Shown: piece by piece, positions 1 through 44,910 of the stretch | How the letters are laid out: every line of letters starts with the position of its first letter | Numbering within the stretch: the stretch's first letter is position 1 | Assembly: GCF_900120125.1 (NCBI RefSeq) | Contig: NZ_LT635544.1 | Coordinates: 325,458 to 389,457 of the forward strand | DNA: 64,000 nucleotides | DNA from: Gemella massiliensis | GTDB lineage: Bacteria; Bacillota; Bacilli; Staphylococcales; Gemellaceae | Reading direction: 5' to 3' | The notes under the pieces: generated by a model | What the model was told of the DNA's origin: nothing | Database searches by the model: none | The model's input: the letters and a program-made list of their open reading frames with translations, nothing else | Position numbers and translations under genes: made by a program

Positions 1-957
1 GATATTTACGTTCTTGATGAAATAACGAGTAACCTAGATCTTAAGGCTATAAAGCTAATTTCTACCATTATACAAAATTTGAAAAAAAATGGAAAAACGG
101 TTATTATTGCTGAACATAGAATATACTACTTAAAAGATTTAATAGATAGAATGTACATCATAAAAGACGGTAAAGTCATTCATTCTGTTGGTAAAGAAGA
201 ATTAAATAATTTTGACGGTAGAGCTTGTCAAACAAGACAAATAGATTTGAACAAAGTAGAGCTTGCTACAAGAAAAAGAGTTACAGATGGTAAAGAAAAT
301 TATTTAATGATAAATTCTCTTAGCTACAAGGTAAATAAAAAAAATATAGAAATAAAACGGGAAAACTTTTCAACTTCAAAAGTTTATGCCATTATTGGAG
401 ATAACGGCTGTGGTAAGACTACTTTTGCAAATGCGTTAAGTGGCTTAGTAAAAATTAAATATAATATAGAATTAGCCGGGGAAGTTATTTCTAAAAAAGG
501 TTTGTTAAAAAACACTTTCCAAGTAATGCAGGATGTTAATTATCAGCTATTTACCAATTTAGTGGATAAAGAAATAAAATTGGGTTGTAATAATATAGAA
601 ATGTTTGATAAAATAGTCGATAGTCTGGGTATAAGAAAACTGTTAGGAAGACACCCCAATACATTATCCGGTGGAGAAAAGCAACGGGTAGCTATTGCTT
701 CGGCTCTTTTATCAAAGAAAAAAATTCTTATTTTTGATGAACCGACAAGTGGTTTGGACTACATTAATATGATAGAATTGAGTAAATTAATTCATGAAAT
801 AGGAAAAAGCGATGTAGTTATTTTTATCATAACTCATGATTATGAATTTTTATGTACAGTTGCCGATGAAGTATTGCACTTTGATGAAAACGGGATAAGA
901 GAACGGATTGATCTAAACGTTGAAACAAAAGAAAAAATCTTAAAAATAATGAGTTAA
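1..957 (+). CDS. Double ABC ATPase, ECF/cobalt type, 5' end outside window
   Basis: The reading frame is open from base 1, so the start lies upstream. The visible 318 residues hold the end of one ATPase domain (Walker B DIYVLDE, D-loop SNLD, H-loop IIAEHR) and a complete second domain: Walker A GDNGCGKTT (about 133-141), signature LSGGEKQR (about 222), Walker B ILIFDEPTSGLD and H-loop ITHD. Two fused cassettes with Q-loops of the VMQDVNYQLF kind are typical of ATPases of energy-coupling-factor transporters, which use a separate T protein and substrate-binding S protein. Those partners are not visible; they may lie upstream. A terminator follows the stop codon. The substrate cannot be told from this part. 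Confidence 0.85.
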   Translation, partial: DIYVLDEITSNLDLKAIKLISTIIQNLKKNGKTVIIAEHRIYYLKDLIDRMYIIKDGKVIHSVGKEELNNFDGRACQTRQIDLNKVELATRKRVTDGKENYLMINSLSYKVNKKNIEIKRENFSTSKVYAIIGDNGCGKTTFANALSGLVKIKYNIELAGEVISKKGLLKNTFQVMQDVNYQLFTNLVDKEIKLGCNNIEMFDKIVDSLGIRKLLGRHPNTLSGGEKQRVAIASALLSKKKILIFDEPTSGLDYINMIELSKLIHEIGKSDVVIFIITHDYEFLCTVADEVLHFDENGIRERIDLNVETKEKILKIMS

Positions 958-19123: not shown

Positions 19124-19260
19124 AAAAATAATCAAAAGTAATTTTGGTTGTTCCTTTTGAAAAAGGATAAAATAATTTCAGGATTAGTTCAAGTTAGTTG
19201 TGGGGGTTCATATCACTACCTAATTATTGCGGAAATATTTGTAAAATATATATAAGAATA

Positions 19261-28318: not shown

Positions 28319-28337
28319 AGGGTGGTAAATTAAATAT

Positions 28338-28422
28338 AAGCACTAGGGGTGCCTTTAGGCTGAGATAACAAATGTTAGACCCTTTGACCTGAACTAGATA
28401 ATGCTAGCGTAGGAAATGTGAT
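28338..28422 (+). ncRNA. TPP riboswitch (THI element)
   Basis: The conserved core is present: GGGGTGCC...GGCTGAGA, then ACCCTTTGACCTGAAC, TAGATAATGCTAGCGTAGG. This is the thiamine-pyrophosphate aptamer. A terminator hairpin follows at 28461-28493, so TPP binding should stop transcription of the tenA operon. Confidence 0.95.
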
Positions 28423-28460
28423 AAAAATTTGTCTTTTTATGTAAATATTAATACACTTTT

Positions 28461-43501: not shown

Positions 43502-43677
43502 CTGCAGCTATTCTTGTTTGTAAAGTATGAGGTATATATCGTTGTGTTTTTTCTATATTTTCTGTTATAATAGTTTTCATAAGAGTAAATTCCTTTTTTT
43601 GATTTGGTGTAACTTCATTATACAGGATTTACTCTTCTTTTTTTTATTATATGTCTCACATCTATTGTAACACTACA
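43488..43677 (-). mobile_element. Inverted left-end fragment of the same IS
   Basis: The reverse complement is nearly identical to 35029-35217: it contains the complete left terminal repeat, the leader inverted repeat and the first 30 codons of the transposase, then stops. Only a few bases differ (ACACCAAATC for ACCTACAAATC). The right part and any target duplication are gone, so a deletion followed insertion. It supplies the stop codon of the ABC ATPase frame. Confidence 0.92.
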
Positions 43678-43721
43678 TCAATGTGATATGATTTTTCTTT
43701 TTTTCTATGAGAAAATAATGT

Positions 43722-44085
43722 TATCTGATATAATATATGTATAGAACTAGGCGAAAACAGATTTGTAGAATATTATTAAAACAATATTGATAAAAATCGT
43801 AGACGGTCTTGACTAAACTTTCAAGCGTCACTTTGTTTCTTTGAAAGTAAGTCTTCGTTGCATACGCTGTACCTAAGTTTTTTGTCGTCGCTTTGCTTCT
43901 AAAAACACAAATGTACAATGCAATGCCCCCTAAGAGGGCTTTGCCCCTCCCAGCAGTTACAACTAGCAATTATCTTCATCACTTTGTGATTTGATAATTC
44001 CAGTTGTTTTTGCATACGTTGTACGTAATGATTTATGCGTCACTTTGTTCCTATAAATCAAAACGTACCACGCATAGTAAATTAA
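43722..44085 (+). repeat. Array of hairpins with a conserved loop
   Basis: Downstream of a TATAAT box (about 43729) lie four hairpins with different stems but one loop sequence: 43811-43853 (GACT..CTTTCAA stem, loop GCGTCACTTTGTTTC), 43860-43921 (GCAT..TGTAC stem, loop TCGTCGCTTTGCTTC), 43959-44004 (AACT..AATTATC stem, loop TTCATCACTTTGTGAT) and 44010-44077 (stem of about 22 bp, loop GCGTCACTTTGTTCC). A GAGGGC/GCCCCTC hairpin sits at 43932-43950. It may be a structured RNA, a leader of the HAD gene, or a dispersed intergenic repeat. Confidence 0.6.
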
Positions 44086-44100
44086 AAAAGGAGCTAATGT

Positions 44101-44910
44101 ATGATAAAATTAGTTGTTACAGATGTAGATGATACATTGCTGAACAGCAAACATGAAATTTCTAAAAAAAATAGAGAAATAATCGAAAGATGTAAGAAAA
44201 AAGATATTAAAGTAGTTTTGGCATCAGGTAGACCGGATTTTGGAATGTTACCAATGGTAAAAGAATTAGGTTTGAATAATTATGATAATTATTTATTATC
44301 TTTTAATGGTGCAAAAATAACCAATATAAAAACGAAAGAGTAAGTATATGAAAAATTTTTATCAAAAGAGAGATTAAAGTTTTTGGTAGATGTAGCTTTA
44401 AAAAACAATTGCGATATTTTAACTTATCAAAATGGGAAAATACTTACGAATAGTGATAATAAATATGCAAGAATAGAATCAGAACTGGTGGGTGCTGAAC
44501 TTTCGATAAAGGAAAACATGAAAGATTATATTAATGAGGGTGCAGCAAAAGTAATTGTTTTAAAAGAACCAACTGAAGCATTAAGAATAAAGGAAAAATT
44601 AGAAAAAGAGCTTAGTGATAGTTACGAAGTCGCAATGTCAAAACCATTTTTTATAGAAATTAATGATAAAGGAATATCAAAGGGTGTCTCTCTTAGTGCT
44701 TTGTGTAAAAAGTTAGGATTTAAAAGAGAAAATGTTATCGCACTTGGTGATGGGTTAAATGATTTAAGTATGATAGAGTTTGCAGGTGTAGGTGTGGCAA
44801 TGGCAAATGCCGGTGATGTAGTAAGGGAGAAGGCGGATTTTATTACAAAGTCGAATGATGAAGATGGTTTTGCCTATGCAGTAGAAAAATTTGTTTTCGA
44901 AAGAGAGTAA
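44101..44910 (+). pseudogene. Cof-type HAD hydrolase gene with an in-frame stop
   Basis: One frame of 270 codons has HAD motifs at both ends: VVTDVDDTLLNSKHEISKKN (nucleophile Asp), VLASGRP, then after the break SKGVSLSALCKKLG and ALGDGLNDLSMIEFAGVGVAMANA (motif IV). A TAA at 44341-44343 interrupts it between KTKE and VYEKFLS with no frame change, so one substitution (for example from GAA, CAA or AAA) explains it. The second part could start at an internal TTG (44383) but would lack the catalytic Asp. The Cof family dephosphorylates sugar phosphates, FMN or similar. AAAAAGGAG precedes the start. Confidence 0.85.

Follow-up and report, generated by a model that had tools for sequence, protein, structure and literature searches.

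BOX elements of Streptococcus pneumoniae are outlined in PMC3049150 as modular, hairpin-forming repeats of the form boxA-boxB-boxC. The REP superfamilies, as summarized in PMC3733652, are marked at one end by a tag, GTAG or CGTC, that stays unpaired, and those with GTAG associate with transposase genes; in REPINs the palindromes are paired (PMC3116915, in outline). How hairpin stems arise has been treated separately: template switching is said, in the account of PMC8794818, to leave fully inverted loops and multiple compensatory stem changes, and is there proposed as both creator and keeper of hairpin stems. We describe here a hairpin repeat of the genus Gemella. Covariation between the arms of such stems is commonly read as evidence of functional RNA.

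The Gemella unit compares with each of these systems in part. With BOX, as far as the outline of that system goes, it shares modular interspersed hairpins in an oral or nasopharyngeal Gram-positive bacterium and variable numbers of internal modules; it differs, BOX being compared by description only, in having, in place of boxA-boxB-boxC, double hairpins of ~120 bp whose stems have diverged and whose junctions are GCA/TGC. Like REP, BIME and REPIN sequences, as these are summarized (PMC3733652, PMC3116915), it consists of extragenic palindromes in pairs and clusters, but it is much longer, has no end tag as a rule and no association with Y1 genes. Like a MITE it is non-coding, short, dispersed and intergenic, and in two genomes units also lie inside a 288-650-bp element bounded by terminal inverted repeats (TIRs), as in MITEs with TIRs such as RUP-like elements; the unit itself has no TIRs, and it also occurs alone outside the MITE, in the window and in other species. 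Integron attC ends carry RYYYAAC and GTTRRRY boxes. The unit is somewhat like attC in that structure is kept while sequence varies and in forming arrays at fixed sites, but the core boxes are absent at its ends (0 of 75 distinct copies, on either strand). A TnpB-derived PATE (IS605) was rejected, with PF07282 in none of the nine Gemella genomes. Because REP tags, Y1 association and attC boxes all fail, we file the unit as a new genus-restricted variant working like MITE, BOX and REPIN repeats.

The window is the whole stretch of 64,000 nucleotides of Gemella massiliensis that was analysed (contig NZ_LT635544.1, positions 325,458 to 389,457; positions below are those of the window, and its genome is called G000). 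Reading of 42.8-45.2 kb found four hairpins between 43811 and 44075, all on the forward strand. By sequence reading, hairpin 1 (43811..43853) has arms GACTAAACTTTCAA / TTGAAAGTAAGTC around a loop at 43825-43836, and hairpin 2 (43859..43922) has arms TGCATACGCTGTAC.. / ..GTACAATGCA and its loop at 43885-43896. Hairpin 3 (43953..44013; arms GCAGTTACAACTAGCAATTATC / GATAATTCCAGTTGTTTTTGC, loop 43976-43987) was placed by reading and folding, and hairpin 4 (44011..44074; arms TGCATACGTTGTACGTAATGATTTAT / ATAAATCAAAACGTACCACGCA, loop 44037-44048) by reading and repeat alignment. The preliminary description had reported four successive hairpins with one loop motif around stems that differ yet remain self-complementary. 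All four loops do fit one motif, KCRTCRCTTTGY, and the alignment of hairpins 2 and 4 over 65 bases is real (72% identity by repeat finding, which also aligned hairpins 1 and 4 over 26 bases at 81%). The four hairpins are there too, but the repeating unit is not one hairpin; it is a pair of about 120 bp, present twice in tandem.

Both tandem copies were matched on the plus strand by a covariance model of the unit, R1, whose alignment also contains them: copy 1 (hairpins 1 and 2; 43803..43922; G000:C5:369260-369379) at 106.8 bits, E 3.6e-19, and copy 2 (hairpins 3 and 4; 43953..44074; G000:C5:369410-369531) at 114.2 bits, E 9.7e-21. Copy 2 folds far beyond its shuffles (z -5.8, equalled by 0 of 200), whereas copy 1 taken alone does not (z -0.61, equalled by 53 of 200) and is recognized through its match to the repeat family. 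Folded singly as RNA, hairpins 1 and 2 are unremarkable (z -0.43 and -1.25) and hairpins 3 and 4 remarkable (-3.82 and -2.82). The copies are separated by a small GC-rich inverted repeat read in the sequence, GCCCCCTAAGAGGGC (43925..43939, no strand assigned); a related block lies beside a unit in G001 and G002 and occurs without one in G005. The loop word CGTCRCTTTG, with at most one mismatch, occurs eight times in the window against 2.96 expected, four of the eight being the array loops, and a longer form fitting loops 1 and 2 has no other occurrence in G000. Rfam gave no match on the array at gathering score and nothing meaningful over it at E<=10; a sub-threshold Spy392987 match lies upstream, at 43579-43640. 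The sole Rfam match in the window at gathering score is a TPP riboswitch at 28335-28433.

The unit has a simple grammar: GCAGT, hairpin 1 (outer stem AACTA/TAGTT), TTTTGCATAC, hairpin 2 (outer stem GTACSTAA/TTACGTAC) and GCA, together ~120 bp. In each hairpin the outer stem is the more constant, the inner stem is variable but self-complementary, and the tip is often CTTTG-like. GCA stands at the start in 52 and at the end in 35 of 75 distinct copies, and there is no inverted-repeat relation between the two outer ends of the unit. An nhmmer search with eight seed units gave 53 distinct copies in the loci collected by then, 32 of them near full length. R1 was made from 25 of these 32, seven being left out as truncated, low-scoring or cut; some rows of its alignment were widened by a few bases, and member copies match the model by construction.

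Among the genomes searched, the unit is found only in the genus Gemella. Blastn of the array against 40 genomes, its own included, matched 12, of which nine are the whole genus, often matched several times; the three matches from other genomes (G009, G014, G037) are only 24-46 bases long and touch the gene start or sequence beyond the hairpins. R1 found the unit in all nine Gemella genomes, with 96 matches at E<=0.01 and 3 to 18 per genome, 18 of them in G000 (this total, and that of 100 used below, include some overlapping both-strand matches of one palindrome). With stricter filters, R1 matches in the order were confined to Gemella (9 of 157 genomes, 0 of the 148 others), and in a sample of the class to the unit's own genome, G000 (1 of 398). 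Of 14 stretches in a pattern scan of named genomes, seven were from G. haemolysans, G. sanguinis and G. bergeri; the rest were single matches outside Gemella, including one in a Staphylococcus, and by estimate lie near chance. The same kind of scan gave four single matches in viral contigs, and the array was without match in phage and plasmid collections and in distant blastn. Literature on Gemella, covered as titles and the beginnings of abstracts among the matches listed, held no paper on such a repeat. The covariance-model search of relatives that the preliminary description had proposed thus returned many dispersed copies, with real covariation. As to a known simple palindromic repeat family, also envisaged there, the unit is not a GTAG- or CGTC-tagged REP, and no Rfam family matches it at gathering score.

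The covariation is strong. With 25 copies aligned without structure (alignment A1, by MAFFT), 18 of 26 RNAalifold pairs had changed on both sides. For the 36-pair structure 89.9% of cells are paired, a percentage that leans towards the structure in an alignment fitted to it, as A2 was to the model's. Cells changed on both sides numbered 137, where shuffles gave 44.6 +- 4.8 and slid structures no more than 27. One pair near the base of hairpin 1 (6-62 in A1) is a constant G-T, in 25 of 25 rows of A1 and 67 of 71 cells of A2; amid mostly Watson-Crick pairs this mismatch gives hairpin 1 a polarity, or strand mark.

Selection on RNA pairing should leave G-U pairs far above A-C. In 73 distinct non-overlapping copies, drawn from the best 78 of 100 rows and with the constant pair omitted (GT in 67 of 71 cells), 2141 cells are Watson-Crick, 60 G-U, 78 A-C and 170 other. 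Folding is equally indifferent to strand: the element strand has a mean z of -4.88 and the opposite strand one of -4.76, with 36 of 73 copies lower on the element strand (p 0.69). Before removal of overlaps the values were similar (z -4.83 and -4.91 in 83 copies; 64 G-U and 79 A-C in 75), and raw energy, which has no shuffle correction, favoured the minus strand, where 58 of 83 copies had the lower value (p 3.5e-6). The glmS ribozyme served as a control in nine genomes, with mean z -0.84 in sense against -0.03 and sense better in eight of nine; the single TPP riboswitch gave a wrong-way strand result, and the strand control is a modest one. Covariation that is strand-blind and almost only Watson-Crick makes the pairing look like a property of DNA. 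The earlier interpretation holds as to a repeated, dispersed structural element with real covariation; a function at the RNA level is unsupported.

Copies lie between genes. Among the best 78 of 100 matches, 74 overlap no ORF of at least 100 aa by more than 30 bases, and the matches face their neighbouring ORFs in no uniform direction (67 of 78 are flanked by an ORF on each side; orientations are relative to mechanical ORFs of 100 aa or more). Neighbours less than 400 bases apart are arranged -+ in 11 cases, ++ in 8, -- in 7 and +- in 3, a few overlapping matches included. Certain sites recur. Directly behind the rplQ terminator, units occur in six of nine genomes, the arrays beginning at the T run of the terminator in five and a few bases later in G001. 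The first ~190 bases here are common to G003, G007 and G008, and G001, G002 and G004 differ; arrays at one site that differ among species suggest rearrangement since the species split. G000 has at this site a similar-looking hairpin that is without R1 match. Behind the rpmH terminator (rpmH-rnpA) there is a unit in one of nine genomes, G001. In four genomes arrays stand downstream of the glmS ribozyme and ahead of the glmS start codon (L007 1370-1620, L009, L006, L074), in some overlapping the last bases of the ribozyme model, and would therefore be part of the mRNA. Units also lie at or near the 3' end of guaA, beside islands, in G001, G002, G003, G005 and G007. At the borders of the guaA islands (L069, L019, L073, L018) the terminal bases of guaA recur, exactly or nearly so, after each unit, and at the G001 locus (L069) two units flank a gene for a serine resolvase (Pfam Resolvase, E 1.4e-25).

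G000 and G006, the relative nearest to it, also carry units within an element bounded by TIRs (TATATATTATTTTACAAA ... TTTTGTATATAAATATATA), whose TIR and core blocks matched only these two of the nine genomes. This nested-hairpin MITE, of ~190-650 bp with TATATATTATTTTACAAA TIRs, was seen at L203 (G000:C7:178111-178752), at L204 and at many further places in both, and short relics of it lie in the window at about 2713-2826 and near 19193-19254. Copies of this MITE are distinguished by hairpin modules that are interchangeable. A 642-base reference holds units at 64-182 (-), 192-310 (+) and 461-579 (+), and many other copies have only parts of 1-65, 311-455 and 580-642, so the MITE exists both with and without units. 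On its right side the empty form ..CTGCGTAGCAGTTAGTTC.. compares with the filled form ..CTGCGTACGTTA[GCAGT..]AGTTC..; in short copies the left pair of units is replaced by another hairpin stretch of ~40 bases, which is not plain insertion. Copies with units in G000 are 91-96% identical over their full length.

At the window locus the array lies ahead of a gene for a Cof-like HAD hydrolase (44101..44910, +; Pfam Hydrolase_3 on 44383-44907). The frame has an in-frame stop at 44341-44343, which splits it into ORFs 44101-44343 and 44383-44910 and is either a pseudogene mutation or a sequencing error; in G006 the frame is open. Upstream, at 43707..43734 (+), is a promoter-like block kept in related loci (ATGAGA-16-TATAAT, with TG before the -10), the probable promoter of the HAD gene. 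The TATAAT noted earlier is present at 43729-43734, and although it is not significant in itself (the promoter scan gave 6 matches, 3.8 being expected), the block around it is kept in relatives. The array does stand between this block and the gene start, and the repeats would accordingly lie in the HAD leader, but the distance to the start needs correction from 15 to about 26 bases, the last hairpin ending at 44074-44075 and the ATG being at 44101. The HAD leader has a unit in G000, G002 and G006, and a second copy of the HAD start has one in G001 and G005; the gene is without a unit in its leader in G004, G005, G007, G008 and G003 (in G003 over 132 upstream bases).

The array had also been said to adjoin IS-scarred DNA. 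A better description of the neighbourhood is a junction that recurs at the HAD 5' end and at which gene modules seem to have been added in tandem. The junction string, TGTATGATAAAATTAGTTGTTACAGA (44098..44123, +; identified by recurrence in relatives), has extra copies with at most three mismatches and no HAD gene following in six of the eight other genomes of the genus (G001, G002, G003, G004, G005, G008), and after it comes AATAACAACGTAAAG in G002, G003, G005 and G008 and other sequence in G001 and G004. The HAD start ATGATAAAATTAGTTGTTACAGA, or nearly that, stands at extra positions in G008 (C14:24931 and 27837), G002 (C1:293434) and G001 (C25:1696 and 5262), where it borders stretches ~2-4 kb apart, in G005 (C1:1338536), where they are 50 kb apart, and further in G003 (C61:2679) and G004 (C9:70554); four of the cases encode, as read, the short peptide MIKLVVTEITT-stop. 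The modules at HAD-side junctions encode an ABC transporter and small unassigned proteins. No recombinase was seen by eye among ORFs of at least 80 aa in three HAD-side loci, nor by Pfam in nine ORFs scanned, and from its recurrence the string looks like an integration or duplication junction without a visible recombinase. Junctions of this type occur without a unit at 293434 in G002, on C61 in G003 and in G008. Since only some junctions carry units, the units ride on the junctions and do not cause them.

How the stems change can be followed where copies share a site. The guaA copies and a first HAD group show few differences, all one-sided, and three rplQ copies show several one-sided changes and no two-sided ones. 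In the glmS group, G002/G007 against G003/G008, there are 3 to 4 two-sided changes and they are confined to hairpin 2; the HAD pair G000/G002 has six, five of them in hairpin 2. These hairpin-2 differences look, in the aligned copies, like exchange of a whole hairpin or re-copying of one arm, not stepwise compensation. In one copy, L210 of G000, an 18-base loop is inverted relative to its sisters L203, L205, L206 and L209; the loop and the left flank have a single mismatch each. The five other inverted-loop pairs listed each involved an opposite-strand match of a palindrome already in the set and were left uncounted, and a 3-base loop difference between L070 and L076 was too short to count as an inversion.

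We read the array as a palindromic DNA repeat of Gemella, modular and non-autonomous, that stands here in two tandem copies and is of the BOX, REPIN or MITE kind, and give this a probability of roughly two in three. The unit would spread as a folded or palindromic DNA substrate, perhaps helped by an enzyme acting in trans or by recombination and slippage between arrays. Stems may keep their match through re-copying of one arm from its partner, by template switching at hairpins during replication, and also through exchange of hairpins between copies. At the window locus the unit likely has no required role in the probable HAD leader. This reading is supported by sites found both with and without the unit (the HAD leader, the rplQ terminator and rpmH-rnpA), by MITE copies of both kinds, and by arrays, tandem as well as inverted, that several species have at common sites. 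Against it, no constant target-site duplication was found by eye in the flanks of 32 copies, although TA stands on both sides of the unit at the HAD site of G002; no site is a perfectly clean empty one, the nearest being the HAD pair G005/G002; searches of the nine genomes for Y1 and TnpB were negative as movers, and no mobilizing enzyme was identified; and the evidence for template switching is the one 18-base inversion. The one-sided changes at rplQ, the modest strand control, the lower raw energy of the minus strand, the polarity of hairpin 1 and the lack of inverted repeats at the outer ends of the unit count against it as well. A further possibility is decayed remnants only, old MITE debris whose palindromes persist by hairpin mutational bias with no current mobility. 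The copies are diverged and many are partial, no transposase was found, and template switching as proposed in outline (PMC8794818) would make and maintain the stems. That remnants are the whole explanation we think unlikely, given that six of nine species have rplQ-site arrays, of which three share their first bases and the other three differ, and that the unit-holding MITE copies of G000 remain so nearly identical. It overlaps with the mobile-repeat reading, and the odds given to the readings do not sum to one.

The alternatives that assign the unit a more specific role or mover fare less well. The preliminary description had raised a leader RNA, and a structured RNA acting when transcribed, its stems kept by selection on RNA pairing, would account for the strong covariation and for the HAD and glmS elements lying between a promoter block or ribozyme and a gene start. 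We hold it very doubtful: G-U cells do not exceed A-C (60 and 78), folding z has no strand preference, orientation to neighbouring ORFs is mixed, the rplQ and rpmH units sit behind a terminator, no Rfam family matches at gathering score, and relatives have the HAD gene without the element. Units do stand beside module junctions (the HAD 5' end, the guaA 3' ends) and are repeated at module borders in G001 and G005, one pair flanking the G001 resolvase gene; arrays recur at rplQ, and structure is kept where sequence is not, all of which would fit a recombination or attachment site where a recombinase adds gene modules at folded hairpins, in the manner of an integron or an island attachment. But the HAD junction also occurs without a unit, which is thus not needed for module addition, and with attC-like boxes lacking and no recombinase seen among the HAD-side ORFs read or scanned we consider such a site quite improbable.

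Paired extragenic palindromes in tandem and inverted clusters, as REPINs are portrayed in PMC3116915, would suggest a REP/REPIN family that a Y1 (IS200-type) transposase, of the REP-associated kind, mobilizes. Yet the end tag GTAG occurs in 3 of 75 copies and CGTC in none (CGTC is in many loops), and the unit is 3-6 times the length of a REP. Y1 (PF01797) is found in five of nine genomes and units in all nine, G004-G007 having units and no Y1; 12 of the 13 Y1 matches were examined as loci and none of them has a unit. The reading is largely refuted for Y1 enzymes that Pfam recognizes, and as a whole it is highly improbable. A bolder and rather improbable proposal is that a Gemella DNA system, with an enzyme of undescribed type, would recognize folded single-stranded hairpins by their GCA/TGC junctions and tips, and add, swap or invert hairpins at fixed sites to give integron-like arrays. 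The covariation would then be wholly at the DNA level, and DNA processes alone would have made covariation as strong as that of a classical RNA family.

The mobile-repeat reading carries a related lesson for Gemella, whose repeat has strong covariation and nevertheless, by its strand-blind and almost purely Watson-Crick pattern, points to DNA. It could therefore serve as a negative control for RNA discovery, and as a test set for how hairpin stems evolve by template switching, arm conversion and module exchange. It could also lead to a new mobilizing enzyme, and could become a typing repeat for this oral genus as BOX is for the pneumococcus.
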